From positions 1 through 49,522 of the forward strand of contig JAPKZI010000230.1 in the NCBI GenBank assembly GCA_026393865.1: a DNA stretch of 49,522 nt, read 5' to 3'. This DNA comes from Candidatus Aminicenantota bacterium. Lineage in GTDB: Bacteria > Acidobacteriota > Aminicenantia > Aminicenantales > UBA4085. Shown here one piece after another: positions 1,799-36,314 of the stretch. The position numbers and the translations under genes are program-made. Position 1 is the first letter of the stretch. Each line of letters begins with the position of its first letter. The notes beneath the pieces are model-generated. The model did not search any database, had not been told where the DNA came from, and saw only the letters and a program-made list of their open reading frames with translations.

Positions 1799-4700
1799 AT
1801 GCCTTCCGATTCTTCCAAAAAACTATCAAATAGGAATCGCTTTCCTCTTACATCCCCTGGTGGGATGGATCTGAAAAAAGGACTTTTCGGGGCGATCGTT
1901 TTTATCGGCATCCTCATCGGATTCGCTTTGTGCCTATCCGCCCAGGTCAATCTATTGCACATTTTCAAGCCGACCGGGGCCTACGCGCCTGGAGGGACTT
2001 TAATCACGGATGGGACGTACTTCTATGGAATGACGGCAAGGGGTGGAGATTTCTTATGGGGGACTATTTTCCGTGTCCAGCCGGGTGAGAGCGGAATCCT
2101 GTTGCTCCATAGCTTTGCCGGGGGCGCCGCGGACGGGAGATACCCTCATGGTTCTCTGATCGTCTCTGACGGAAGACTCTACGGAATGACGTATAATGGA
2201 GGCGCCAGTGATCGGGGAACTATCTTCAAGATCAATCCCGACGGCAGCGGATTTGCGCTCCTCCATACCTTTGCCGGGGGCGCCGGCGATGGTCGATATC
2301 CTCATGGTTCTCTGATCTGCTCCGGCGGGGTGCTCTATGGAATGACGGAGGAGGGCGGCGCTAGTAATCGGGGAACTATCTTCAAGATCAATCCCGACGG
2401 CAGCGGATTTGCGCTCCTCCATACCTTTGCCGGGGGCTCCGAGGACGGTCAATATCCTTATGGTTCTCTAATCAGCTCCGACGGGGTGCTCTATGGAATG
2501 ACACATGCTGGCGGCGCCAGTAATAATGGAACTATCTTCAGGGTCAAGACGTCCGGCGGCGGGTTTGAACTGCTCCGCTCGTTTGCCGGGGGCGCCGGGG
2601 ACGGTCAATATCCTTATGGTTCTCTAATCAGCTCCGACGGGGTGCTCTATGGAATGACACATGCTGGCGGCGCCAGTGATAAGGGAACTATCTTCAAGGT
2701 CAATCCCGACGGCGGCGGGTTTGCATTGCTCCGCTCGTTTGCCGGAGGCTTTGGGGACGGGTGTAATCCTCGTGATTCTCTGATCTGCTCCGGCGGGGTG
2801 CTCTATGGAATGACGCAGGAGGGCGGCGCCAGTGATCGGGGCACTATTTTTAAGATCAATCCTGACGGCAGCGGATTCGCTAAGCTCCATACCTTTGCCG
2901 GGGGCTCCGAGGACGGTCAATATCCTCTTGGTTCTCTGATCGTCTCTGACGGAACACTCTACGGAATGACGTATGAGGGCGGCGCCAGTAATAATGGAAC
3001 TATCTTCAAGGTCAAGACGTCCGGCGGCGGGTTTGCACTGCTCCGCTCGTTTGCCGGGGGCGCCGGGGAGGGGAAAAATCCTGGTGGTTCTCTGATCGTT
3101 TCCGGCGGAGTGCTCTACGGAATGACGAGCGAGGGCGGCGCTAGTAATCGGGGCACTATCTTCAAGATCAATCCCGACGGCAGCGGATTTGCGCTCCTCC
3201 ATACTTTTGCCGGGGGCGCCGGCGGTGGTCAATATCCTTATGGTTCTCTAATCAGCTCCGACGGGGTGCTCTATGGAATGACGTATGAGGGCGGCGCCAG
3301 TAATAATGGAACTATCTTCAAGGTCCATACGTCCGGCGGCGAGTTTGTACTGCTCCGCTCGTTTGCCGGGGGCGCCGGGGACGGGAGAAACCCTTATGGT
3401 TCTCTGATTTACTCAAGCGGCGTGCTCTATGGAATGACACAAAATGGAGGCGCCAGTGATAAGGGAACTATCTTCAAGGTCAATACGTCCGGCGGCGGGT
3501 TTGCGCTCCTCCATGCCTTTGCCGGGGGCGTCGGCGATGGTCAATATCCTAATGGTTCTCTGATCATCTCCGGCGGGGTGCTCTATGGAATGACGCAGGA
3601 GGGCGGCGCCAGTGATAAGGGAACTATCTTCAAGGTCAATACGGCCGGCGGCGAGTTTGCACTGCTCCGCTCGTTTGCCGGGGGCGCCGGGGACGGGAGA
3701 AACCCTTATGGTTCTCTAATCAACTCCGACGGGGTGCTCTATGGAATGACACATAATGGCGGCGCTAGTGATAAGGGAACTATCTTCAAGGTCAATACCT
3801 CCGGCGGCGGGTTTGCACTGCTCCGAACGTTTCCCAGAGGCGCCGGGGACGGGTATTTCCCTGCGGATTCTCTAATCATCTCCGGCGGCACGCTCTACGG
3901 AATGACGAATAAGGGCGGTGACAGTGATCTGGGCACTATCTTCAAGATCAATCCCGATGGCAGCGGATTCGCTTGGCTCCATAGATTTGTCGGGGGCTCC
4001 GAGGACGGCCAGTATCCTTATGGTTCTCTGATCATCTCCGGCGGCGTGCTCTACGGAATGACGTATGAGGGCGGCGATGCCGACTGGGGAACGGTGTTTT
4101 CCAAAGAATTACCGACATCGACCATTTCCGGAACGGTCAAAGTCGGCCAGACGGCCTTGGAGAACGTGGTGATGTCGGGTCTTACGGGAACCGTGAAGAC
4201 AAACACCTCGGGCCAGTACACGGCCACGGTTTACTACGACTGGTCGGGGACGGTGACGCCGACGCTCGCCGGATATGCCTTCGATCCGGCGAATAAAGCC
4301 TATGCCTCGGTCACTTCGAACCAAACCCAGAACTACGCCGCGACGCTCTTGACTTACACGGTCTCGGGCACGGTGAAAGTCGGAGAGACGGCCCTCGAGA
4401 ACGTCGTCATGGCCGGTCTCCCGGGAACCGTGAAGACCAACGCCTCCGGCCAGTACTCCGGGACGGTCGACTACGGCTGGTCCGGGACGGTGACGCCGAC
4501 ACTCGCCGGCTATACCTTCGATCCGGCGGATAAAGCCTATGCCTCGGTCACTTCGAGCCAGATCCAGAACTATGCCGCGACGCTCCTGACTTACACGGTC
4601 TCGGGCACGGTGAAAGTCGGAGAGACGGCCCTCGAGAATGTCGTCATGGCCGGTCTCCCGGGAACCGTAAAGACCAACGCCTCCGGCCAGTACTCCGGGA

Positions 4701-6454
4701 CGGTCGACTACGGTTGGTCCGGGACGGTGACGCCTACCCTCACCGGCTACACGTTCGATCCTGCGAGCAAATCGTATACAAACGTGACCTCGAACCAGAC
4801 GTCCCAAAACTACGCGGCGACGCTCAACCGGCTTCCCCAGATCGGGCTGTCGAGAACAAATCTCAATTTCGGGGCGACGAGCGGAGGGACGGGCACCTCG
4901 GCTCAAAAAGTCGTCGCTTCGAACGCCGGCGGGGGGATTTTGAATTGGTCGGCGATTTCGAGTGCGACCTGGCTTTCGTATTCGCCCGGGTCGGGGACGG
5001 GATCGGGCGTCATCCAGGTCGGCGTCAATCCGGCCGGGCAGGCGGTGGGGACGCAGACAGGGACGGTCACGATCTCGGATCCGAACGCAACCAATAGTCC
5101 CCAGACGATCAACGTCACGCTGACGGTCAAGGCGGCCGGGACGAGCACGGTCCCCTTCGGGGATTTTGCCACGCCTCTGGACGGGACGACGGGAGTTACC
5201 GGCGCGATCCCGGTGACGGGCTGGGTGGTGGACGATGTGGAGGTCGTCAAGGTGGAGATCCTGCGGGACAACGTCGCGGGGGAGACGCCCGGCCAGTGGG
5301 CCATCGGCGACGCCATCTTCGTCGAGGGTGCACGGCCCGACGTTGAGCAAGCGTACCCTGACTATCCTTTGAACTACCGGACCGGATGGGGTTACATGAT
5401 GTTGACGAATTTTTTACCAAACAAGGGAAATGGGACGTATAAGCTCTACGCTTACGCCACGGATAAGGAAGGGAACCAGGTATTATTAGGGACAAAGACG
5501 ATCACCTGTTCCAACGCTACGGCGGTGAAGCCCTTCGGGACGATCGATAGCCCCTCGCAGGGCGGGGACGCCTCGGGAAATCCTTATCTAAACTTTGGCT
5601 GGGTGCTGACGCCGCTGACAAAGACGGTGCCCCAGAACGGATCGACGATCCTGGTGTATGTGGACGGGGCGTATGTGGGGAACCTAGGGACGGCGCCTAA
5701 CGTTTATGACCAATATAGGGTGGACGTATCGACGGCGTTTCCGGGATTGAACAACACGGGGGCGCCCGGAGCAGGCGGGCCGGTGGGGGCATATTTCCTG
5801 GACACGACGAAGTACCCGAACGGGGTGCATACGATCGCGTGGGTTGCGACGGACGACGGGGGGGCGGCGGACGGGATCGGCTCACGCTATTTCAACATCA
5901 TCAATACGGGCACGAACGGGCAAATTAGCGCAGAAGCTCGGGCTATGGATCTGAGTTCGCCTCTGTCTTTTGGCACCGTGACCTTCGAATCCCTGGCCGA
6001 GCTGTACGTTTCTTTCGATTCTCTTTGGTTGAAGCGCGGGTTTGAGAGAGACAGACCGGCGGAAAAAGTGATGCCTGATGACTTCGGCCTGTCCAAGATC
6101 ATGATCGAGGAGGTCGGACTTTTGGAAATATCTCTAGATCCGAATAATCCCCCCCCGCCCCCCTTTAGAAAGGGGGGGGAAGTCTCAAAGTACGCCGGAA
6201 AAGTGGGGGAGGAAATGCGGCATTCGGGCTTTAGAGAAGCCGGGGAAAATGTCCGCTATTCAGGTTATCAGATCGTCGGCGATGAACTGCGCCCGCTGCC
6301 GATCGGCTCGACCCTCGATCCCTGGAACGGCCGCTTCTCCTGGATGCCGGGACCGGGTTTCCTGGGTGATTATGATTTCGTGTTGGTGAGGGAAGATACG
6401 GCCGGATCCATGATGAAGACGAGGTTGAGGATTCGAATTCTGCCTAAGTTCTAA
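1799..6454 (+). CDS. Giant secreted GloVer-repeat (beta-propeller-like) protein with shared C-terminal module
   Basis: 1551 residues. GAGAGGA six bases before the ATG at 1799 supports this start; a shorter start at residue 23 (MDLKKG) would give a more standard signal peptide, and the hydrophobic core is GLFGAIVFIGILIGFAL. Residues ~52-768 are 14 copies of a ~52-residue unit (LYGMT..GGAS..GTIFK) matching the Gloeo/Verruco 'GloVer' repeat. Residues ~770-1010 are three carboxypeptidase-regulatory-like repeats (SGTVKVGETALENV). A BACON-like domain follows (~1015-1117), then Ig-like segments (~1117-1360) and a C-terminal domain with LPIGSTLD and FSWMPGPGFLG. Everything from the BACON domain on is shared with the two SBBP proteins of this window. 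It is probably an extracellular binding or surface protein; the ligand is unknown. A translated palindromic repeat interrupts the C-terminal domain near residue 1450. Confidence 0.85.
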   Translation: MPSDSSKKLSNRNRFPLTSPGGMDLKKGLFGAIVFIGILIGFALCLSAQVNLLHIFKPTGAYAPGGTLITDGTYFYGMTARGGDFLWGTIFRVQPGESGILLLHSFAGGAADGRYPHGSLIVSDGRLYGMTYNGGASDRGTIFKINPDGSGFALLHTFAGGAGDGRYPHGSLICSGGVLYGMTEEGGASNRGTIFKINPDGSGFALLHTFAGGSEDGQYPYGSLISSDGVLYGMTHAGGASNNGTIFRVKTSGGGFELLRSFAGGAGDGQYPYGSLISSDGVLYGMTHAGGASDKGTIFKVNPDGGGFALLRSFAGGFGDGCNPRDSLICSGGVLYGMTQEGGASDRGTIFKINPDGSGFAKLHTFAGGSEDGQYPLGSLIVSDGTLYGMTYEGGASNNGTIFKVKTSGGGFALLRSFAGGAGEGKNPGGSLIVSGGVLYGMTSEGGASNRGTIFKINPDGSGFALLHTFAGGAGGGQYPYGSLISSDGVLYGMTYEGGASNNGTIFKVHTSGGEFVLLRSFAGGAGDGRNPYGSLIYSSGVLYGMTQNGGASDKGTIFKVNTSGGGFALLHAFAGGVGDGQYPNGSLIISGGVLYGMTQEGGASDKGTIFKVNTAGGEFALLRSFAGGAGDGRNPYGSLINSDGVLYGMTHNGGASDKGTIFKVNTSGGGFALLRTFPRGAGDGYFPADSLIISGGTLYGMTNKGGDSDLGTIFKINPDGSGFAWLHRFVGGSEDGQYPYGSLIISGGVLYGMTYEGGDADWGTVFSKELPTSTISGTVKVGQTALENVVMSGLTGTVKTNTSGQYTATVYYDWSGTVTPTLAGYAFDPANKAYASVTSNQTQNYAATLLTYTVSGTVKVGETALENVVMAGLPGTVKTNASGQYSGTVDYGWSGTVTPTLAGYTFDPADKAYASVTSSQIQNYAATLLTYTVSGTVKVGETALENVVMAGLPGTVKTNASGQYSGTVDYGWSGTVTPTLTGYTFDPASKSYTNVTSNQTSQNYAATLNRLPQIGLSRTNLNFGATSGGTGTSAQKVVASNAGGGILNWSAISSATWLSYSPGSGTGSGVIQVGVNPAGQAVGTQTGTVTISDPNATNSPQTINVTLTVKAAGTSTVPFGDFATPLDGTTGVTGAIPVTGWVVDDVEVVKVEILRDNVAGETPGQWAIGDAIFVEGARPDVEQAYPDYPLNYRTGWGYMMLTNFLPNKGNGTYKLYAYATDKEGNQVLLGTKTITCSNATAVKPFGTIDSPSQGGDASGNPYLNFGWVLTPLTKTVPQNGSTILVYVDGAYVGNLGTAPNVYDQYRVDVSTAFPGLNNTGAPGAGGPVGAYFLDTTKYPNGVHTIAWVATDDGGAADGIGSRYFNIINTGTNGQISAEARAMDLSSPLSFGTVTFESLAELYVSFDSLWLKRGFERDRPAEKVMPDDFGLSKIMIEEVGLLEISLDPNNPPPPPFRKGGEVSKYAGKVGEEMRHSGFREAGENVRYSGYQIVGDELRPLPIGSTLDPWNGRFSWMPGPGFLGDYDFVLVREDTAGSMMKTRLRIRILPKF
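1955..4105 (+). repeat. Tandem in-frame ~156-bp repeats encoding GloVer units
   Basis: Fourteen head-to-tail units of about 156 bp. Many differ by only a few bases, for example the recurring block ctatggaatgac followed by ggcggcgccagt, so copies were spread recently by unequal recombination or gene conversion. Confidence 0.85.
4115..4830 (+). repeat. Three tandem ~235-bp repeats encoding carboxypeptidase-regulatory-like domains
   Basis: The unit SGTVKVG(Q/E)TALENVVM ... TPTL(A/T)GY(A/T)FDPA occurs three times; copies two and three are nearly identical in DNA. Confidence 0.8.
6146..6180. repeat. CCCCCC/GGGGGG hairpin repeat inside the reading frame of the GloVer protein
   Basis: AATCCCCCCCCGCCCCCCTT followed by TAGA and AAGGGGGGGGA. 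It resembles the intergenic elements at 23063-23157 and 27450-27613 but here is translated as NNPPPPPFRKGGE. The two SBBP paralogues lack about 35 residues at this point. Confidence 0.75.
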
Positions 6455-6469
6455 CCGCCCCGAACCGCC

Positions 6470-15008: not shown

Positions 15009-15353
15009 TGGAGGCGGCGGGAATCGAACCCGCGTCCGAAGACGTTCAGCGGAAAGCATCTACATGCTTGTCCTCTTCTTTGTTCTTGTTCCGCGGTGCC
15101 CGAAGAGGCAGGGACTCCGCGAAACCAGCCCCGAAGAGGCTTCGCTCGCCGGGCTCAAGGCCGACCCGGTCCGCTATCCTGCTTGTCCACGCTTCTCAAG
15201 AACCGCAGGAGTGAACCTGAGAAACGGCATACCTTTCTTTAGGCAGCTAAGGGTTGTGCTTCTGCACTTACTTGGTTCCATCGTTTTACGAGGTGTATGG
15301 GATCTCGACATGCCGCTTTCGCCTCACTATCTCCGTCGAATCCGTTCGCCCCC
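15009..15353 (-). ncRNA. ssrA: tmRNA
   Basis: 345 nt on the minus strand. The 5' end GGGGGCGAACGGATTCGACG and the 3' end CGGGTTCGATTCCCGCCGCC form the tRNA-like part; the acceptor stem pairs GGGGGCG with CGCCTCC (one G-U), with discriminator A. The 3' CCA is not encoded, because the next bases are T. The tag frame, aligned after CCTCGTAAAA as in E. coli, resumes at GCA and reads A-E-A-Q-P-L-A-A then TAA. The ORF track shows the same end in the false ORF 15239-15436 (AEAQPLAA). Eight residues is short for a tag but keeps the LAA degron. Confidence 0.95.
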
Positions 15354-18558: not shown

Positions 18559-21500
18559 CTATTCTCGATGGCTCTCGAACTTCGGCCTGATCGTCACCTT
18601 GACCGGAATCCTTCTCGTGATCCCCAATCCACCTTCCTTAATAAAAACCAAATCGTATGTCCCCACGAATCCCGGTCCTGGCATCCAGGAGAAGGTCCCG
18701 GTTCGTTGGTCCAGCGTCGAACCAATCGGCAGAGATCGCAATTCTTCACCAACAACGTGGTATCCCCTGATCGGTTTGGCTTTCCCTAGATCAATTTCGA
18801 CTCTTTCAACCTCTTTTATCTCGATATGTAGAGTCCCATAATTATCTGGCTGGAGGACTTCCGGATCTGGCTTAAAGCTAAAACCTCTTTTTGCCATTAA
18901 GGGCTCGAAACTCACCGGGAGATTCATTAAGGATTCAAAGTAATTGGCTTTTTCTGGGTTAATTGACTGTGCACTTGCCGGCGCCGAAGTTCCCGTATTG
19001 ACGATGCTGAAGTATCGGCTGCCGATCCCGTCCGCCTGCCCCCCGTCATCCGTGGCGATCCAGTAAATGGTGTGGACGCCGTTCGGGTAGGTCGTCGTGT
19101 CCAGGTAATATGCACCCACTGGCCCGCCGGCCCCGGGCGCCCCTGTGTTGTTCAATCCCGGGAACGCCGTCGCCACATCCACGCGGTACTGGTTATAAAC
19201 GTTTGGCGCCGTAGCTAAATTCCCGACTTTAACACTATCCACATACACGTCGATCGTCGACCCGTTTTTGGGCACCGTTTTCGGCTTCGGCGTCAATACC
19301 CAGCCGAAGTTGACGAAAAGGCTGCCCGACGCGTTCCCTCCCTGCGTCGGCGTGTCGATCGTCCCGAACGGCTTCACCGCTGTAGCGTTGGAACAGGTAA
19401 TCGTCTTCGACCCCAACAACACCCTGTTGCCTTCTTTATCCGTTGCATAGGCATAGAGCTTGTACGTCCCGTTCCCATGCGCCGGGAGCATGTTCGTCAG
19501 CATCATATAGCCCCAGCCCGCCTTGTAGTTCATCGGAAGCGTCGGAAACGCCGCCTCGATATCGGGCCGGGCGCCCTCGACGAAGATGGCCTCCCCGATG
19601 GCCCATTGGCCGGGCGTCTCCCCCGCAAAGTTGTCCCGCAAGATCTCCACCTTGACGACCCCGATATCGTCCATGGCCCAACCCGTCACCGGGACGGCTC
19701 CCGTCACTCCCGTCGTCCCCTCCACCGGGGTATCGAACGAGCCGAACGGAACCGTGCCCGCCGCCTTAACCATTAATCCGACGTTTATAGCCTGAGGGCT
19801 ATTGGTGGCGTTCGGATCCGAGACAGTGATCGTCCCCGTATACGATCCGGCCGCCAGCCCCGCCGGATTGACGCTCATCTGAATGACCGCCGTTCCCGTC
19901 CCCGAAGCCGGGGTCACCGCGAGCCAGGTCTGGCTGGAGTGGGCTGACCAATTCAGCGTACCGCCTCCCGTGTTGCTCACGATGACCGACTGAGATTGCG
20001 TTACGACGCCCCCCGATTGCGCCCCGAAATCCAGTCTTATCTTGCTTAAACGGATTGTCGGCGGTGCCGGGATGAAAATCGTGAACGAGGCGTCGCTCGT
20101 ATCCGAAACGGCGGGGTTGGAAGCGTCACTCACCCTCACCCGGCAGTTCGTCGAGGCCGCCATGAACCATTGCCAAGCAAATTCCCCAACGTTCAACGAC
20201 GAGGCGATGATCGTCGTCCAGTTCGCCCCCCCGTCGGTCGAGTACTCGAGTTTGACGTTGGCGATCGTTCCGGTCGTCGTCCACGTGAGGGCATGCATGG
20301 ACCCCGCCGCCCAGATCTCTCCCCCGTTGGGCGCGGTGACCGTGATCGACATGCCTACGAGCGTGAAGGCGGCGTCGCTGACGTCGAAGGCCGCGGCGTT
20401 CGCCGCATCGCTGACCCGGACCAAGCCGTTCACCGAGGACGCGTCCGGCACCGTCCAGGCATACGTCCCCGTGTTCGTCGTCGAGGCGACGATCGTCGTC
20501 CAGTTCGCCCCCCTGTCGGTCGAGTATTGGAGTTTGACGTTGGCGATCGTTCCGATCGCCCGCCAAGTGATGTTGCGCACGGACCCCGCCGCCCAGATCT
20601 CCCCCCCGTTGGGCGCGGTTACGAGGACCGGAACTTCCTTAATTTTGGCGACGAAAGCCGCATATCTTCCGTACCAAGTCAGGTCCGGTCCTGTCACGAC
20701 AGGGAAAAAAGGGTCCCAGGCGGAGGTGCGACCCACAACATACGCGGCCCCGAAATCGTCCACGGCTATGCCCCTGGCTACCTCTTCGGTATAGCTGCCG
20801 ATATATCCGCAATAGACTAGCGCCTTGCCCGAGGAGTCCACCTTGGCCACAAAGGCGTCCCCCTCTTGCGGAATGCCGCTGTCGTTGTATGTGAGGTCCG
20901 GACCCGAAACGACCGGAAAAGTGGCCTCGCTGGAATACGTCACGCCCGCGATATACGCGTTCCCGGAACCGTCGACCGCAACCCCGAGGGCGGTTTCGTG
21001 ATCCACGCCGCCGATATACCCGCAGTAAATGAGCGCCGTGCCCGTGGGGTTGATCTTGGCTACGAATGCGTCTGCGCGGTCTAACCCGGGATTGTTATAG
21101 GTCAAGTCCGGGCCCGCGACGACGGGAAAGGTGTCCTCGGCAGATCTCGTCTCGCCGGCGACATAAGCGTTTCCCGAGCCGTCCACATCGATCCCGTAGC
21201 CTCGGTCATAACCGGAACCGCCGATATATCCGCAATAGACCAACGCCGTCCCAGTCGCGTTCACCTTGGCCACGAAGACATCGTAAGAGCCGTTCTGCGT
21301 CAGATCAGGACCTGAGACGACGGGGAAGTCAGTGTAGCTCGTTTCTCCAGTGACATAAGCATTTCCGAGATTATCCACGGCGATCCCGTAACCCCTGTCA
21401 TTGCCGGAACTGCCGATATAGCCGCAATAGTCAAGTGCCGTCCCCGTAGCGTTCACCTTGGCGACGAAAACGTCCTCGCCTCCGTTGGACGTCAGGTCAG

Positions 21501-22896
21501 GCCCCTCGACGACGGGAAAAAGCCACTCGGGAGAAGTCGTCCAGCCCGTGACGTAAGCGTTTCCGGAACCATCGACCGCAATGCTTAAGCCTCTATCATC
21601 CACACCGCCGCCGATGTAGCCGCAATAGACGAGCGACGTCCCCGCGGCGTTCACCTTGGCCACAAACGCGTCAGGCGGCTGGTCACTGAAGATCAAGCCG
21701 GGGCCCGAAACGACCGGAAAAGTCGCCTCGGCGGAGGCCGTATCTCCGGTGATATAAGCATTTCCGAGATTATCCACGGCGATCCCGTAGCCCCTGTCAT
21801 AGCTGGAACCGCCGATATAGCCGCAGTAAACAAGCGCCGTCCCCGAAGCGTTCACTTTGGCCACGAACGCGTCGCCGCCGCCTGTCAGATCCGGGCCCAC
21901 AACAACTGGAAAGGAGGCCTCCGTGGAACCGGCATAGCCCACGATATACGCATTCCTTGACCCGTCCACGGCAATCCCAGAGGCCTCATCCCAACCCGTA
22001 CCGCCGATATAGCCGCAGTAGACAAGGACCGCCGGGTCGAGGACGAGCGGCCGGCTGCGGTCATATTCCCCGACCTCGAATCCGTAGACTTGACTCCCGT
22101 TCCCGCCTGCGGCTTTTTCCATTTTTTGCAAAACATAGGCCGCGGGGACATCCGCCTTCCCACGATCGCCGTCTTGCCAGGCCACCGGGACATCATCCTC
22201 GAAACCGCCCACGGGCGTCGTGACCGCGAGCCGCCCTTCCTCCGTCACCTCGACCGAGTCCGCTCCTCGATAGGCCAGCCGGATACGCGACGGATCCGCT
22301 CCGGGATGAACGATGAACTCGTATTTCATCCGGTCGACCGTCCCGGAATAGAGGAGATCGATCCCAGGCCAAAGATCTTGATAGATAATCTTCGAATATG
22401 TCGGAAGGCCTGTCTTCCATTCCTCGGGTTTTCCCTTGAAATAGGAAATGACGGCCTCGGTCTTCTCAACGCCCGTCGGCCTCGCTGCGGGATTCGCGTC
22501 CACAAAATCCAGCTTCACCACCCATCGGGACTCCGGCGCGGCTTCGATTTTCTCTCTTTCCCTCTCCCGGCCGATGGGACCCGATAAATCCGGAGTTTTC
22601 GATCTGCCTTTTCCCATCTCGTTCCCGCTAAGAGCGATGGTCATTCCTTCTGATGTGAAGTACAGGCTCTTATCCTTCCCCTGCACATAATAGGCCACCC
22701 GCTCGTCCATCTGCCCCCGGTTTTCGATGAAATAAACCGGCATCTTCCCGAAATTCATGTCCGTCTTCAGCCCCGACGACTTCAAGGAAAGGGAGATCCC
22801 GGAGGATGTCTGGATCATCCCGACGCTCGTCGATCCTCTCTCGATGGAGACAAAAGCCAAAAGGAAAGAAAAAACGCAGATGAAACGTCTTTTCAT
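18559..22896 (-). CDS. Giant secreted SBBP beta-propeller protein (copy 1)
   Basis: 1445 residues from the ATG at 22896 (MKRRFICVF); GGGAGG upstream decides the start over the track's 22938. A signal peptide is followed by a DUF7948-like N-terminal domain (~40-290: YFIENRGQMDERVAYYVQG, YSKIIYQDLWPGIDLLY). Residues ~292-750 are seven SBBP propeller repeats (YCGYIGGS..DRGYGIAVD..GNAYITG). Two Ig-like repeats (TAPNGGEIWAAGS) lie at ~752-949, a BACON-like domain at ~950-1045, then the Ig-like and C-terminal modules shared with the GloVer protein (PFGSFDTP, KPFGTIDTP, LPIGSTLD, FSWMPGPGFVG). It is presumably extracellular. The downstream paralogue at 23270-27280 shares the N-terminus almost exactly. 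Confidence 0.85.
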   Translation of the reverse strand: MKRRFICVFSFLLAFVSIERGSTSVGMIQTSSGISLSLKSSGLKTDMNFGKMPVYFIENRGQMDERVAYYVQGKDKSLYFTSEGMTIALSGNEMGKGRSKTPDLSGPIGREREREKIEAAPESRWVVKLDFVDANPAARPTGVEKTEAVISYFKGKPEEWKTGLPTYSKIIYQDLWPGIDLLYSGTVDRMKYEFIVHPGADPSRIRLAYRGADSVEVTEEGRLAVTTPVGGFEDDVPVAWQDGDRGKADVPAAYVLQKMEKAAGGNGSQVYGFEVGEYDRSRPLVLDPAVLVYCGYIGGTGWDEASGIAVDGSRNAYIVGYAGSTEASFPVVVGPDLTGGGDAFVAKVNASGTALVYCGYIGGSSYDRGYGIAVDNLGNAYITGDTASAEATFPVVSGPGLIFSDQPPDAFVAKVNAAGTSLVYCGYIGGGVDDRGLSIAVDGSGNAYVTGWTTSPEWLFPVVEGPDLTSNGGEDVFVAKVNATGTALDYCGYIGSSGNDRGYGIAVDNLGNAYVTGETSYTDFPVVSGPDLTQNGSYDVFVAKVNATGTALVYCGYIGGSGYDRGYGIDVDGSGNAYVAGETRSAEDTFPVVAGPDLTYNNPGLDRADAFVAKINPTGTALIYCGYIGGVDHETALGVAVDGSGNAYIAGVTYSSEATFPVVSGPDLTYNDSGIPQEGDAFVAKVDSSGKALVYCGYIGSYTEEVARGIAVDDFGAAYVVGRTSAWDPFFPVVTGPDLTWYGRYAAFVAKIKEVPVLVTAPNGGEIWAAGSVRNITWRAIGTIANVKLQYSTDRGANWTTIVASTTNTGTYAWTVPDASSVNGLVRVSDAANAAAFDVSDAAFTLVGMSITVTAPNGGEIWAAGSMHALTWTTTGTIANVKLEYSTDGGANWTTIIASSLNVGEFAWQWFMAASTNCRVRVSDASNPAVSDTSDASFTIFIPAPPTIRLSKIRLDFGAQSGGVVTQSQSVIVSNTGGGTLNWSAHSSQTWLAVTPASGTGTAVIQMSVNPAGLAAGSYTGTITVSDPNATNSPQAINVGLMVKAAGTVPFGSFDTPVEGTTGVTGAVPVTGWAMDDIGVVKVEILRDNFAGETPGQWAIGEAIFVEGARPDIEAAFPTLPMNYKAGWGYMMLTNMLPAHGNGTYKLYAYATDKEGNRVLLGSKTITCSNATAVKPFGTIDTPTQGGNASGSLFVNFGWVLTPKPKTVPKNGSTIDVYVDSVKVGNLATAPNVYNQYRVDVATAFPGLNNTGAPGAGGPVGAYYLDTTTYPNGVHTIYWIATDDGGQADGIGSRYFSIVNTGTSAPASAQSINPEKANYFESLMNLPVSFEPLMAKRGFSFKPDPEVLQPDNYGTLHIEIKEVERVEIDLGKAKPIRGYHVVGEELRSLPIGSTLDQRTGTFSWMPGPGFVGTYDLVFIKEGGLGITRRIPVKVTIRPKFESHRE

Positions 22897-22975
22897 ATCA
22901 ACCTCCCGCCGGAATCGATGACATAGGCCGGGAGCCAATTTCTCGACCTTATTATGGATAGGCTATCTGTGAATA

Positions 22976-23062: not shown

Positions 23063-23157
23063 CCAAAACGCCTTTAAGACTCTGAATTAGTGATATCTAT
23101 CCCCCCTACCCCCCTTATGTCAAATAAGGGGGGCCCCGAAACATGTAGGCGTTTTGG
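23063..23157. repeat. 95-bp MITE-like element with 11-bp terminal inverted repeats
   Basis: The ends are CCAAAACGCCT and AGGCGTTTTGG, perfect inverted copies. The interior carries ATCCCCCCTACCCCCCTT and, after a short spacer, AAGGGGGGCCCC. It has no coding capacity. Related copies lie at 27411-27613. Confidence 0.75.
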
Positions 23158-23165
23158 GGATTGTA

Positions 23166-23236
23166 TGGTGGGGCCGACGAGACTTGAACTCGCGACCTCT
23201 GACGTGTAAGCCCGATACTCTACTGTTTCCCGCCGG
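23166..23236 (-). pseudogene. Truncated or chimeric tRNA-Asp
   Basis: The 3' half (23166-23206: anticodon-stem 3' side, variable loop, T arm, acceptor 3' strand, CCA) matches the intact tRNA-Asp at 27625-27701 with one change, the discriminator base. The 5' half is replaced by GGCGGGAAACAGTAGAGTAT, which cannot pair with the acceptor strand CGGCCCC. A functional cloverleaf cannot form. Confidence 0.7.
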
Positions 23237-23269: not shown

Positions 23270-26200
23270 TTATTTCGCCCTGAACTTCGGCTTGATCGTG
23301 ACCACCACGGGAATTCTTCTCCCGATGCCGAACTCATCTTCCTGGACGAAGAGGAGGTTATAAGTCCCTAGGAATCCGGGTCCCGGAAGCCAGGAGAACG
23401 TGCCTTTCTTGGTGTCGAGCGTCGAGCCGATGGGCAACCCTCGCAGCTCCTCGCCCACAACCAGATAGCCTTTGAGGCCCGGGCCTTTCCCAAGATCAAG
23501 TTCCAGGCGCTCGACCTCCCTCATTTCCGTCCGGATCACGCCATACCGGTCAGGCTCGATCATTTCGGCCGGAGCGGACAGATCGAAGCCCTTTTTCACG
23601 GAAACGGAATCGAACGATACGGGGAGCCTTCCGAGAGTGCCCATCTTGGGAACCGCCGCCGCAAAATCAGGGGCGATGGTCGAACCCACGGCCTTGATTT
23701 CATTGGCCGTGGTCCCTGTATTCACGATGTTAAAATAGCGCGAGCCGATCCCGTCCGCCTGCCCCCCGTCATCCGTGGCGATCCAGTAAATGGTGTGGAC
23801 GCCGTTCGCGTATTTCGTCGTATCCAGGTAAAAGGCTCCGACCGGTCCCCCGGCGCCAGGCGACCCCGTATTGTTCAATCCGGGGAAGGCGGTCGAGACA
23901 TCCACCCGATACTGATTGTAGACGTTCGGGGCCGTGGCCAGGGTCCCCGCTTGGGTCCCATCGACCCAGACCGAAATTGTTGACCCGTTCTTCGGCACCG
24001 TCTTCGGCAGCGGCGTCAGCACCCAGCCGAAGTTGACGAAAAGGCTGCCCGATGCGTCTCCCCCCTGAGTCGGAGTGTCGATTGTTCCGAACGGCTTAAC
24101 GGCTGTCGCGTTAGAACAGGTGACTGTCTTCGTCCCCAACAGCACCCGGTTCCCTTCTTTATCCGTGGCGTAGGCATAGAGTTTGTATGTCCCATTCCCG
24201 TGCGCTGGGAGCATGTTCGTCAACAGCATGTAACCCCAGCCCGCCTTATTATTCATCGGATACCCCGGCAAGGCCGTCTCGATATCGGGCCGGGCCCCCT
24301 CGACGAAGATGGCCTCTCCGATCGCCCACTGGCCGGGCGTCTCGCCCAAGACGTTATCGCGCAGAATCTCCACCTTGGTTACCTCGATATCATCCAGCGC
24401 CCATCCGGTCACCGGAATCGCGCCTGTAATCCCCGTCGTCCCCTCCACCGGGGTATCGAACGAGCCGAACGGAACCGTGCCTGCCGCCTTAACCATTAAT
24501 CCGACGTTTATCGCCTGAGGGCTATTAGTGGCGTTCGGATCCGAGACGGTGATCGTCCACGTATAGGATCCCGCCGCCAGCCCGGCCGGGTTGACGCTCA
24601 CTTGAATGACTTTCGTTCCCGTCCCCGAAGTCGGGGTCACCGCGAGCCGGTAATGGTTGGAGAAGGCTATCCAATTCAGCGTACCGCATCCCGTGTTGCT
24701 CACGATCACCGATTGGGATTTGGTCGAAACGCCGCCAGCCACCGCCCCGAAGTTCAGAGCATTTCGGCTGAGGCCGACCGTCGGGATCCCGACGATAGTG
24801 AACACCGCATCGCTCAGATCACTGACCGTTGCGTTCGAAGCGTCGCTCATCCGGACAAGACAGGTAGTCGAGGGCGTATTCGGTATAGTCCAAGGATAAC
24901 TCCCTGTATTGGATGTCGAGGCGATGACGGTCGTCCAACTTGTTCCGTTATTCGTCGAATACTCGATCTTGACGTTGGCGATCGCGCCCGTCGAGGCCCA
25001 GGTGATGTTGTGAGCCGATCCCGCCACCCAGATCTCTCCCCCGTTGGGCGAGGTCACGACGACCGGAACTTCTGAAATTTTCGCGACGAAGGCGTCGTAA
25101 TCGCCTCCGTTATATGTCAGGTCAGGTCCTGTCACGACGGGAAACCGCCAATCCCAACCGGTGGTGTGGCCCGCAACATACGCGTCCCCGAAATCGTCCA
25201 CGGCTATGCCCCAGGCTCCGTCTTCGCTCCGGTCGCCGATATATCCGCAATAGATTAGCGCCCTTCCCGAGGAGTCCACCTTGGCCACAAAGGCGTCCCC
25301 GGGCACCGGCGTGATGCCGAAGTCGTTGTATGTGAGGTCCGGACCCGAAACGACCGGAAAAGTGGCTTCGGTGGACCACGTCTGGCCCGCGATATAGGCG
25401 TTCCCGGAACCATCGACCGCAATGCTATAGCCTCTATCATCTTCACTGCCGCCGATATACCCGCAGTAAATGAGCGCCGTGCCCGTGGGATTGATCTTGG
25501 CTACGAATGCGTCTCTGGCGAATAAACCGGGATTGTTAAAGGTCAAGTCCGGGCCCGCGACGACGGGAAAGGTGTCCTCGGCAGATCTCGTCTCGCCGAC
25601 GACATAAGCATTTCCCGAGCTATCCACGGCGATCCCGTAGCCATCGTCAGCGTCGGAACCGCCGATATATACGCAATAGATGAACGCCGTCCCCGAAGGA
25701 TTCACCTTGGCGATAAAAGCATCGCCGCCGCTGGATCCGGTGATATAAGCATTTCCGAGATTATCCACGGCGATCCCTCTACCCTGCGGACAGCCGATAT
25801 AGCCGCAATAGTCAAGTGCCGTCCCCTTAGCGTTCACCTTGGCCACGAACGCTATGATGAATCCGCCGTTGAAAGTCAGGTCAGGCCCTACGACGACGGG
25901 AAAAAGCCACCAGGGAGACTCCGTCCAGCCCGTGACGTAAGCGTTTCCGGAACCATCGACCGCGATGCTGTAGCCTGCATCATCCCCACTGCCGCTGATG
26001 TAGCCGCAATAGACGAGCGACGTCCCCGAAGCGTTCACCTTGGCTACGAACGCGTCGGGTGGTCCGATAGAAGTCAGGCCAGGGCCCAAAACGACCGGAA
26101 AAGTCGCCTCGGTGGATTTCGTGTCTCCAGTGATATAAGCATTTCCGAGATTATCCACGGCGATCTTTCTTCCCCTCTCCCAGCTGGAACCGCCGATATA

Positions 26201-27280
26201 GCCGCAGTAAACAAGCGCCGTCCCCGAAGCGTTCACTTTGGCTACGAACGCGTCGCTGCCGCTTTCTGTCAGATCCGGACCCACAACAACTGGAAAGGAG
26301 GCCTCCGTGGAACCGGTAGTGCCCACGACATACGCATTCCTTGACCCGTCCACGGCAATCCCACCGGCCGTATCTTGTCCCGAGCCGCCTATAAAACCGC
26401 AATAGACAAGAACCGCCGGGTCGAGGACGAGCGGCCGGCTGCGGTCATATTCCCCGACCTCGAATCCGTAGACTTGACTCCCGTTCCCGCCTGCGGCTTT
26501 TTCCATTTTTTGCAAAACATAGGCCGCGGGGACGTCCGCCTTCCCTCCATCGACGTCTTGCCAGGCCACCGGGACATCATCCTCAAAGCCGCCCGCGGGC
26601 GTCGTGACCGCGAGCCGTCCTTCCCCGGTCACCTCGACCGCGTCCGCTCCTCGATAAGCCAGCCGAATCCGCAACGGATCCCCGCCCGGATGGACGATGA
26701 ACTCGTATTTCAGCCGATTGACCGTCCCGCCATAGACAAGATCGATTCCAGGCCAGAGATCCTTATAGATAATCTTCGAATATGTCGGGAGGCCCTTCTT
26801 CCATTCCTCGGGTTTTCCCTTGAAATAGGAAATGACGGCCCCGGTCTCCTCGACGCCCGTCGGTTTCGCTGCGGGATTCGCGCCCACAAAATCCAACTTC
26901 ACCACCCAACGAGCATCCGACGCGGCCTCGCTCTTCGCTCTCTCCCGCTCCCCGTTCATGGGACCAGGCAAAACCCGAGCTTCGGGCCTGTCATTCCCCT
27001 TCGTGCTCCCGCTGAGGACGATCGTCACACCTTCGGATGTGAAATAAAGGCTCTTATCCTTGCCCTGCACGTAATAGGCGACTCTCTTATCCAACTGACC
27101 CTTGTTGGCGATGAAATACAGCGGCATCTTCCCGAAATTCATGTCCGTCTTCAGCCCCGACGACTTCAAGGAAAGGGAGATCCCGGAGGATGCCTGGATC
27201 ATCCCGACGCTCGTCGATCCTCTCTCGATGGAGACAAAAGCCAAAAGGAAAGAAAAAACGCAGATGAAACGTCTTTTCAT
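23270..27280 (-). CDS. Giant secreted SBBP beta-propeller protein (copy 2)
   Basis: 1336 residues from the ATG at 27280 with the same GGGAGG context as copy 1. Architecture: signal peptide, DUF7948-like domain (YFIANKGQLDKRVAYYVQG), seven SBBP repeats (~292-740), one Ig-like repeat (TSPNGGEIWVAGS; copy 1 has two), BACON-like domain (~830-927) and the shared C-terminal modules ending RIPVVVTIKPKF. The N-terminal ~60 residues and the 220 bases upstream are nearly identical to copy 1, while propeller loops differ, including one blade reduced to CGYIGCPQGRG. This fits tandem duplication followed by divergence of the ligand-facing part. The biological ligand is unknown. Confidence 0.85.
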   Translation of the reverse strand: MKRRFICVFSFLLAFVSIERGSTSVGMIQASSGISLSLKSSGLKTDMNFGKMPLYFIANKGQLDKRVAYYVQGKDKSLYFTSEGVTIVLSGSTKGNDRPEARVLPGPMNGERERAKSEAASDARWVVKLDFVGANPAAKPTGVEETGAVISYFKGKPEEWKKGLPTYSKIIYKDLWPGIDLVYGGTVNRLKYEFIVHPGGDPLRIRLAYRGADAVEVTGEGRLAVTTPAGGFEDDVPVAWQDVDGGKADVPAAYVLQKMEKAAGGNGSQVYGFEVGEYDRSRPLVLDPAVLVYCGFIGGSGQDTAGGIAVDGSRNAYVVGTTGSTEASFPVVVGPDLTESGSDAFVAKVNASGTALVYCGYIGGSSWERGRKIAVDNLGNAYITGDTKSTEATFPVVLGPGLTSIGPPDAFVAKVNASGTSLVYCGYISGSGDDAGYSIAVDGSGNAYVTGWTESPWWLFPVVVGPDLTFNGGFIIAFVAKVNAKGTALDYCGYIGCPQGRGIAVDNLGNAYITGSSGGDAFIAKVNPSGTAFIYCVYIGGSDADDGYGIAVDSSGNAYVVGETRSAEDTFPVVAGPDLTFNNPGLFARDAFVAKINPTGTALIYCGYIGGSEDDRGYSIAVDGSGNAYIAGQTWSTEATFPVVSGPDLTYNDFGITPVPGDAFVAKVDSSGRALIYCGYIGDRSEDGAWGIAVDDFGDAYVAGHTTGWDWRFPVVTGPDLTYNGGDYDAFVAKISEVPVVVTSPNGGEIWVAGSAHNITWASTGAIANVKIEYSTNNGTSWTTVIASTSNTGSYPWTIPNTPSTTCLVRMSDASNATVSDLSDAVFTIVGIPTVGLSRNALNFGAVAGGVSTKSQSVIVSNTGCGTLNWIAFSNHYRLAVTPTSGTGTKVIQVSVNPAGLAAGSYTWTITVSDPNATNSPQAINVGLMVKAAGTVPFGSFDTPVEGTTGITGAIPVTGWALDDIEVTKVEILRDNVLGETPGQWAIGEAIFVEGARPDIETALPGYPMNNKAGWGYMLLTNMLPAHGNGTYKLYAYATDKEGNRVLLGTKTVTCSNATAVKPFGTIDTPTQGGDASGSLFVNFGWVLTPLPKTVPKNGSTISVWVDGTQAGTLATAPNVYNQYRVDVSTAFPGLNNTGSPGAGGPVGAFYLDTTKYANGVHTIYWIATDDGGQADGIGSRYFNIVNTGTTANEIKAVGSTIAPDFAAAVPKMGTLGRLPVSFDSVSVKKGFDLSAPAEMIEPDRYGVIRTEMREVERLELDLGKGPGLKGYLVVGEELRGLPIGSTLDTKKGTFSWLPGPGFLGTYNLLFVQEDEFGIGRRIPVVVTIKPKFRAK

Positions 27281-27359
27281 ATCAACCTCCCGCCGGAATC
27301 GATGACATAGGCCGTGAGCCAATTTTTCGACCTTATTATGGATAGGCTATCTGTGAATA

Positions 27360-27410: not shown

Positions 27411-27613
27411 GGACCCCGAATCAGGAAGGCGTTTAAAGAAAGAGCTTTTCCAAAACGCCTTTAAGACTCTGAATTAGTGATATCTATCCCCCCTACCCCC
27501 CCTTCCAAGAAGGGGGGAATCGTCAGCGTTAATTGCCCAAAACGCTTCCATATCTTTTTAGTGATCTTATCCCCCCTACCCCCCTTCCAAGAAGGGGGGA
27601 ATCGTCAGCGTTT
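27411..27613. repeat. Cluster of MITE-like elements: one right end and two tandem copies
   Basis: 27411-27436 resembles the right end of the 23063-23157 element (CCCCGAAtCAggAAGGCGTTT). Then come two head-to-tail copies, about 27450-27530 and 27537-27613, each CCAAAACGC..TAGTGAT..ATCCCCCCTACCCCCC..CCAAGAAGGGGGGAATCGTCAGCGTT. Confidence 0.75.
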
Positions 27614-27624
27614 CGGGAAAGGAA

Positions 27625-27701
27625 TGGCGGGGCCGACGAGACTTGAACTCGCGACCTCTGACGTGACAGGCCAGCGTTCTAACCAACTGAACTACGGCCC
27701 C
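27625..27701 (-). tRNA. tRNA-Asp (GTC)
   Basis: 77 nt including an encoded CCA. The acceptor stem pairs GGGGCCG with CGGCCCC; the D arm is TAGTTCAGTTGGTTAGAA; the anticodon arm is CTGGC-CTGTCAC-GTCAG with GTC; the T arm is GCGAGTTCAAGTCTCGT. Confidence 0.97.
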
Positions 27702-34963: not shown

Positions 34964-36232
34964 GTGGAAAAGATCCGCATCTTCGGCCATCACGATCAGC
35001 AGCTGAAAGGGACCGTCCGCATCAGCGGCTCGAAGAACGCCGTTCTGCCGGCCATCGCCGCCTCCCTTCTGACCGATGAAAAACTCCGCCTCAAGAACAT
35101 CCCGCTGGTGAAGGACGTTCATTCCATGCTCAGGCTCATGAAGGAACTGGGCGCCGACGGCGACATCAAAAAGAACACCCTCACCATCCAAGCCCGAGGG
35201 ATCCTGTCCGAAGAGGCCTCGTACGATCTCGTTCGCGTCATGCGGGCCTCCTTTTTGGTCCTCGGCCCCATGCTGGCCCGCTTCGGCAAGGCCGTCGTCG
35301 CTCTCCCCGGGGGCTGCGCCATCGGCTCGCGACCCATCGACCTTCACATCGCCGGGCTCCAGAAGATGGGCGCGAACATCACCCTCGAACACGGTTACGT
35401 CAAGGCCGAGGCCGACCGGCTCCAGGGGGCCGATATCCGCTTCGAAAAAAAGACGGTCGGCGGCACGGAGCATCTGGTCATGGCCGCCGCGCTCGCGCGA
35501 GGCGAGACCGTCCTCCGCAACTGCGCCCAGGAGCCCGAGATCTCCAATCTCTGCGAGCTGCTCGTGAAAATGGGGGCCAAGATCGAGGGGACCGGAGAGG
35601 AGGTCATCCATATCCAGGGCGTCGGGGAGCTGGGCGGCGCGACGCACGAGATCATCCCCGACCGGATCGAGGCGGGCACGTTCCTCGTCGCCGGCGCCCT
35701 GACCCGAGGCGACATCACCCTCACCGGGACCGAACCCGGCCATCTTGCGGCCATCATCGAAAAACTTCGCTCCTCGGGCGCCGTCATCGAGATGGACGGA
35801 AAAAAGACTCTGCGCGTCGTCGGCAGCCCCGAGATCAAACCCCAGGACGTCACGACCTCTCCTTACCCGGGGTTCCCGACCGACATGCAGGCCCAGTTCA
35901 TGGTCCTTATGACCCAGGCCTCGGGCACGTCCATCATCACCGAGACCATCTTCGACCGCCGCTTCCTCCACGTCAACGAACTCCTCCGTCTCGGGGCGAA
36001 CATCGAAGTCTCCGGCGACAAGGCGGTCGTCCGCGGCCGGACCCTCCTCTCCGGAGCCGAGGTCATCGCCACCGACCTCCGGGCTTCCGCCTCCCTGATC
36101 CTGGCCGGTCTGATCGCGGGCGGCGAGACCATCGTCAACGAGGTCGAACACATCGATCGGGGGTATGAGGCCATCGAAGAGAAGCTCAAGGCTCTCGGCG
36201 CCCGGATCGAGCGGCTGAAAATGGTGGAATAA
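34964..36232 (+). CDS. murA: UDP-N-acetylglucosamine 1-carboxyvinyltransferase
   Basis: 422 residues from the GTG at 34964; the longer track ORF has an N-terminal extension unlike the family. Conserved parts: ISGSKNAVLPAIAASLL with the Lys-Asn pair, the catalytic loop LPGGCAIGSRPIDLH with its reactive Cys, GGTEHLVMAAALARGETVLRNCAQEPEI, and FPTDMQAQFMVLM. It makes enolpyruvyl-UDP-GlcNAc, the first committed step of peptidoglycan; the presence of Cys predicts fosfomycin sensitivity of the target. murB, the next enzyme, is in the window at 40569-41519. No Shine-Dalgarno is seen. Confidence 0.96.
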   Translation: MEKIRIFGHHDQQLKGTVRISGSKNAVLPAIAASLLTDEKLRLKNIPLVKDVHSMLRLMKELGADGDIKKNTLTIQARGILSEEASYDLVRVMRASFLVLGPMLARFGKAVVALPGGCAIGSRPIDLHIAGLQKMGANITLEHGYVKAEADRLQGADIRFEKKTVGGTEHLVMAAALARGETVLRNCAQEPEISNLCELLVKMGAKIEGTGEEVIHIQGVGELGGATHEIIPDRIEAGTFLVAGALTRGDITLTGTEPGHLAAIIEKLRSSGAVIEMDGKKTLRVVGSPEIKPQDVTTSPYPGFPTDMQAQFMVLMTQASGTSIITETIFDRRFLHVNELLRLGANIEVSGDKAVVRGRTLLSGAEVIATDLRASASLILAGLIAGGETIVNEVEHIDRGYEAIEEKLKALGARIERLKMVE

Positions 36233-36262
36233 TCCCCCTTCATCCCCATTTAGAAAAGGGGG
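36233..36262. repeat. Short CCCCCTT/AAGGGGG hairpin after murA
   Basis: ATCCCCCTTCATCCCCATTT followed by AGAAAAGGGGGAGA. It is related to the C-tract/G-tract repeat family and may serve as a transcript end for murA. Confidence 0.45.
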
Positions 36263-36314
36263 AGAAAGCGAGAGGACAAGAGAATTTTAATTCGAAATCG
36301 TTGAGAGGTCTGCT

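Follow-up and report, generated by a model that had tools for sequence, protein, structure and literature searches.

An in-frame copy of a dispersed C/G palindrome in a surface-protein loop of an Aminicenantes genome

The window, that is, the whole stretch of 49,522 nucleotides analysed here, contains a gene for a giant GloVer-repeat surface protein in which a C-tract/G-tract palindrome is open in frame, and this raises the question of whether a repeat that otherwise lies between genes has become protein sequence, and by which route it came to this position. An initial annotation, made from the letters of the window, had answered the first part with yes, and its interpretation as a whole is partly supported by what follows.

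The palindrome in the window gene and its genomic family

The in-frame palindrome in the GloVer protein was confirmed, with its core CCCCCCCCGCCCCCCTTTAGAAAGGGGGGGG at 6149-6179 lying in frame within the ORF 1799-6454 (Table 1). In the host protein, whose signal peptide was called by eye, 14 GloVer (TIGR03803) stretches and one BACON-like stretch were detected. As annotated for the three giant proteins, the C-terminal domain is common to the GloVer protein and both SBBP/DUF7948 proteins encoded in the window, and we found it also at about 18 other loci in the same genome (~19 in total) and in other Aminicenantes and Acidobacteriota genomes. Its linker B has 41 residues in the window protein compared with 7 in paralogue P0002 and ~7 in the SBBP proteins. 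Counted from SLD to GYQIV, the spacing of 41 residues exceeds that of the SBBP copy 18559-22938 (7, GKAKPIR) by 34, close to the 35 or so extra residues estimated before. An AlphaFold model of the 310-residue domain (33-row alignment) had a mean pLDDT of 82 and a beta-rich, Ig-like architecture, and pLDDT fell below 50 in only two segments, residues 140-149 (linker A) and residues 219-241 (within linker B), the latter bracketed by confident strands. A structure search with the domain returned Ig/Fn3-like proteins, adhesins and RbmA, all with low TM-scores, so that for this domain the fold class alone is informative. The palindrome insert is thereby predicted to form a disordered loop that joins two strands within the Ig-like domain.

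Table 1. Positions of the features discussed, in window coordinates
Feature	Position	Strand	Remarks
Host gene	1799..6454	+	1551-aa GloVer-repeat surface protein; BACON-like and C-terminal Ig-like domains
C-terminal domain of host protein	5522..6451	+	310 aa including insert
Linker B	6140..6262	+	bounded by the strands of domain residues 201-204 and 245-252
In-frame palindrome copy (element proper)	6143..6181	+	predicted reading NNPPPPPFRKGGE
Hairpin arms	C8 at 6149-6156, G8 at 6172-6179	+	inside element 6143-6181
Tandem array, ~33-36 bp units	6167..6268	+	starts in the palindrome's right arm
Unit 1	6167-6199	+	RKGGEVSKYAG
Unit 2	6200-6232	+	KVGEEMRHSGF
Unit 3	6233-6268	+	REAGENVRYSGY
Insert-free paralogous domain	18577..19380	-	C-terminus of SBBP protein 18559-22938; linker IDLGKAKPIRGY
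Insert-free paralogous domain	23282..24103	-	C-terminus of SBBP protein 23270-27322; linker LDLGKGPGLKGY
Second family copy	36228..36266	+	44.3 bits, E = 5.5e-11; apparently intergenic

When the 182-bp region was searched by BLASTN against its own genome (G000; 3.23 Mb, 240 contigs), the hits comprised a paralogue (83% across the aligned portion) and over 20 palindrome-only sites, which cover query positions ~24-64. The dispersed sequence is thus a palindrome of ~40 bp (TATAATCCCCCCnnnCCCCCCTTTAGAAAAGGGGGG...) within an element of ~40-50 bp, laid out as C6NNNC6-TTTAGAAAA-G6. The consensus of 24 aligned copies is nATAATCCCCCCnCACCCCCCTTTAGAAAAGGGGGGGAAn, in which TAAT and TTTAG, both outside the C/G runs, are conserved as well; the fullest copies extend into a mirror arm (GGGGGGTGnGGGGGGATTA), and the length of the C/G tracts differs among intergenic copies. 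Against the family model the copy in the window gene scored 50.4 bits (E = 7e-13), the family match taking in TAAT and TTTAGAAA positions beyond the C/G runs. With the sequence-only model (E < 1e-4) we counted 30 copies in the own genome, another 69 in genome G001 of the same genus (the congener) and 17 weaker ones in one same-family genome, and 93 of the 99 genomes searched had none. The congener has its 69 copies, yet the surface-protein domain family was not detected there; no orthologue of the host gene was detected in it either, and the empty site of this gene is therefore deduced from paralogues. The strict pattern CCCCCC-N2-20-GGGGGG gave 50 matches per strand genome-wide (nested matches counted) against 4 for a reversed control pattern, and it was absent from a phylum-wide sample of 296 other genomes, among which the congener was not included. 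Within the window, C/G palindrome patterns matched 10 times, compared with a mean of 0.52 in shuffles, of which 0/100 reached 10.

Only a minority of the copies, in the own genome and in the congener alike, lie inside recognisable genes; this census is based on stretches of the genomes and, for the coding calls on the other copies, on ORFs and Pfam matches. In a Sir2-family ORF of the own genome, the palindrome supplies the C-terminal tail. Several long ORFs across repeats (e.g. L216, L075, L084, L086, L087) had no family match and were rejected as probably antisense or non-coding. That the same hairpin also lies between genes of the window held for 36228-36266 but not for the hairpins at 23109-23133, 27488-27517 and 27571-27599, which have the 5' arm ATCCCCCCTACCCCCC in common with the family, differ in their centres and were not recovered by the family model. 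Likewise, of the interval 6146-6265 that had been assigned to the insert, the palindrome part stood (as element 6143-6181), whereas 6182-6268 lies outside the dispersed repeat.

Filled and empty sites in conserved enzymes

Orthologue pairs with and without the element were found in three enzymes. The NagA-like amidohydrolase of the congener (L242 1242-2747, C205) carries a net in-frame insertion of +90 bp containing IIPPFFKEAMIPPFSTGGRGGITPRG, the orthologue in the own genome (L276, C144:16925-17275) has an empty site, and DNA identity between the two is 84-89% on both sides of the insertion; the whole element is a palindrome, and the alignment revealed no clear target-site duplication. A GH38 alpha-mannosidase of genome G004 (L246 1197-3101, C4) has the in-frame insert NLPLPPFRKGGDS at a site that is empty in the orthologues of G000, G001, G002 and G006. 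Finally, a loop with PPFLKGG is present in queA of both the own genome (L015 1256-2479, C158) and the congener (L218 1-1794, C126), and the insert is absent from 7/7 other relatives with a readable loop. Six of these have short loops, and the seventh, G003, has at the palindrome-bearing position a long loop of unrelated sequence. Pfam PF02547 spans the QueA insert, and alignments to solved QueA structures split at it. From these filled and empty orthologues we conclude that the element does get into coding sequence without breaking the frame, and that the enzymes keep their conserved parts intact.

The inserts in the three enzymes all read as the peptide PPFxKGG or near it. The linker-B copies and the GH38 insert give PP.PPFRKGG on one strand, and QueA and the NagA-like enzyme give PPF(L/S)(K/T)GG on the other, a pattern that, from few events, is suggestive of one or more preferred frames yielding a conserved peptide. 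A literature search for the exact palindrome strings and for PPFxKGG peptides returned no match.

One junction in four paralogues

That a mostly intergenic repeat became protein sequence, as first claimed, is supported by the filled and empty orthologues and also by three paralogues, C227, C108 and C31, in which the palindrome lies in frame at the same linker-B junction. The extra segment itself, the thing to look for in homologues that lack the repeat, was present in none of the repeat-free paralogues of this genome and in none of about 70 homologues from other genomes, many of which vary in linker length. All four linker-B copies have one orientation and one frame, and the palindrome is 92-100% identical among them, compared with 60-77% for the flanks (Fisher p = 0.01 to 3e-7); between C227 and C31 it is identical at 39/39 nt, with flanks at 64%. 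With both linkers taken out, the tree of the C-terminal domain did not unite the four carriers (3 changes; AU p = 0.0008), and we rejected vertical inheritance of a single insertion along the gene tree as the whole explanation. The surrounding sequence is shared in a patchwork: in the downstream linker the window copy and C227 are 82% identical (0/2000 shuffles), C31 partly shares the window-copy sequence (2-4/2000 shuffles) and C108 does so weakly, and in the upstream stretch C31 and C108 are 80% identical. A downstream unit, AGAGAAG..TATTC.GG.TA, is common to all four carriers and has no comparable match in the repeat-free paralogues C54 or C186. A second palindrome in C227 (L054/L013, C227:25441-25476) is read in another, normally closed frame, both of its stops being replaced (SHPTPLSQRGER; TAA to AAA and TAG to TCG).

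The residues that follow the palindrome in the window protein, VSKYAGKVGEEMRHSGF, had been considered a possible translated flank of the repeat, an idea that we reject since in the 182-bp BLASTN search C227 alone matched beyond the palindrome and the other genomic copies matched only its ~40 bp. This segment looks like a tandemly repeated linker: its units, R(K/E)GGE....SG(F/Y), are 11-12 residues long, and the first of them begins inside the palindrome's right arm. Similarity between units was 20/27 and 21/36 in C227 (0/5000 shuffles), 22/36 in C31 (1/5000) and 19/30 in C108 (3/5000); the comparison was codon-phased, and in the window copy, which is homologous to C227, it is weak by itself (16/33, ~60/5000 shuffles). 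Tandem Repeats Finder run on 6000-6460 found nothing.

Repeats of other kinds occupy linker A of the same protein family. GCGAGGAGCGAAGCGACG, with 11 exact copies genome-wide, is found three times in linker A of paralogues of the own genome (L044, L053, L054), with the predicted reading HREERSDAAI or similar; GGGGACATG/ACGTCC-type sequence is read in linker A of C186 and C227, and that of C227 holds a C/G palindrome as well. A total of 8 paralogues of the LacPavin Aminicenantes MAG (L132, L135, L141, L143, L146, L148, L163, L167) have in linker A a GTAG-tagged palindrome, either GTAGGGGCGAACCCCCGTGTTCGCCC or a variant of it, which mostly reads RRGEPPCSP. The CS4-C025 MAG has LTLNTQHLT-type sequence in linker B, at most a candidate for an intergenic repeat. 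All these counts come from loci picked for this family and show occurrence, not enrichment.

We propose, with a probability of a little over 0.8, that a dispersed palindrome landed in frame and is read as protein, with one capture in linker B as the probable start and a later spread through four or more paralogues. A small, foldable palindromic repeat (~40-50 bp) would have multiplied in the genus, mostly between genes, presumably moving as DNA by a transposition-like process. Where it landed in a permissive surface loop and in a stop-free frame, the gene would survive and gain the reading (N)PP.PPF(R/S/L)KGG, and in the window gene it sits in a loop, predicted to be flexible, of the Ig-like domain that ends the giant surface protein. 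The palindrome probably entered linker B once; duplication and recombination would then have spread or homogenised it in no fewer than four paralogues, and ~36 bp adjoining it would have been tandemly expanded. The sequences are read most simply as a single capture with later exchange, homogenisation and conversion between paralogues, which is what we infer, and the main rival is repeated insertion at a preferred spot. The palindrome is probably translated in the cell and would be near-neutral for the protein. Neither a mobilising enzyme nor a target-site duplication was identified for it, and the RAYT of the genome was rejected as the mobiliser, its sole RAYT-like Y1 transposase (L068 1300-2190, C113) being flanked by a different inverted repeat (GGGGACGACGCATCCTGTCCCC / GGGGACAGGATGCGTCGTCCCC).

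If linker B were a preferred target, it could have been hit separately in the C208/C227 and C31/C108 lineages, and the non-monophyletic carriers, with near-identical palindromes in divergent flanks, are what such independent insertions would leave behind, as is a linker B of variable length next to a linker A that holds other repeats in other lineages. However, the four copies agree in orientation and frame and in the AGAGAAG..TATTC.GG.TA unit that is missing from repeat-free paralogues, and the 80% shared upstream stretch of C31 and C108 also argues against separate hits, so we regard this course as a possible one that is nonetheless doubtful. The linker-A repeats invite the further thought that two surface-protein loops are under selection as landing pads, which each lineage fills with its resident palindromes and recombination spreads; this is rather unlikely, and if true it would make selfish DNA a recurrent source of new surface sequence. 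A related scheme, in which diversifying selection acts on linkers A and B of these presumably exposed proteins, capture of palindromes produces surface variation and the C8/G8 tracts perhaps act as a slippage switch for the last ~90 residues, could draw on the several palindromic families that own paralogues have in linker A (GCGAGGAGCGAAGCGACG, GGGGACATG/ACGTCC-type and C/G palindrome), on the GTAG-tagged palindrome in 8 paralogues of another MAG and on the varying tract lengths of intergenic copies. We consider this hypervariable scheme quite unlikely: the four linker-B copies are constant in total length and frame, with no out-of-frame variants seen among them, permissive neutral loops give the same pattern, and the in-frame copies in the QueA, NagA-like and GH38 enzymes imply that surface exposure is not required.

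Two explanations would remove the phenomenon itself. All genomes compared are draft assemblies (MAGs where so titled), in which repeats can cause misassembly, and a palindrome might have misjoined two paralogues into a mosaic gene that is not real. The upstream flank of the window copy does resemble C108 and C31 (ISLDP) and its downstream flank C227, two further contigs with the repeat are short and contig C227 breaks off inside the gene; but the window flanks are only 53-67% (upstream) and at most 82% (downstream) identical to these candidates, so that no join of known sequences is at hand, the frame is kept, and a similar QueA insert sits at one site in two separately assembled genomes, which makes a chimera highly improbable. 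It is barely credible that the segment is an ordinary low-complexity proline/glycine linker that merely resembles the repeat. Domain linkers do vary in length and composition among homologues, and RNA folding is unremarkable against shuffles (z = -1.5, within the shuffle range, for which reason hairpin stability was rejected as a special feature), but the 40-bp DNA match to a genome-wide family reaches E = 7e-13 and includes positions outside the C/G runs, and the C227 and C31 palindromes are identical at every nucleotide amid diverged flanks, with intergenic copies shared.

Relation to known repeats

RPEs are dispersed palindromes of ~105-150 bp in Rickettsiales that occur between genes and also fused in frame in conserved protein genes, where they are apparently tolerated (PMC2229807, PMC10969869). 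The element described here is like the RPEs and the Wolbachia protein-coding palindromic repeats in being dispersed, with many extragenic copies and in-frame insertions in conserved genes, and insert-free orthologues of conserved genes (QueA, NagA-like, GH38) exist here too, as does, suggestively, a preferred reading with a conserved peptide. It differs in being ~40-50 bp long, not ~105-150 bp, and in belonging to another phylum. We do not file it as an RPE, since its length falls outside the RPE range. REP superfamilies have GTAG/CGTC tags and are associated with RAYTs (PMC3733652). The Aminicenantes palindrome resembles them as a short (20-40 bp), GC-rich and mostly extragenic palindrome in tens of copies, but it has no GTAG/CGTC tag, its aligned copies begin with TAAT and it does not flank the RAYT-like gene of its genome. 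MITEs such as ERIC, Correia/NEMIS and RUP are similarly non-autonomous palindromes occasionally fused with ORFs; the present element is shorter, and a target-site duplication or partner transposase was not found. In poly-C/poly-G phase-variable surface genes, homopolymeric tracts lie inside surface-protein genes, and the C8/G8 tracts are alike in this respect, but they stem from a repeat element, and any switching of their length would be hypothetical.

Translated palindromic elements have so far been documented mainly in Rickettsiales (Rickettsia, Wolbachia). The filled and empty pairs in another phylum, with a much shorter element, indicate that the route from repeat DNA to protein is more general. 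These pairs represent insertions of known relative age, in which effects on fold and activity are testable, and the surface-protein family adds a case of one loop taking up several unrelated repeats.

Elsewhere in the window, the stretches 23094-23220 and 27474-27701 both contain TTAGTGATATCTATCCCCCCTACCCCCC and tRNA sequence, suggesting that the region of the SBBP genes underwent a tandem duplication which took in a tRNA end; the tRNA-Asp is intact at 27625-27701 and a truncated tRNA-like copy lies near 23170-23215. A tmRNA gene with the tag AEAQPLAA is located at 15009-15353 on the minus strand.
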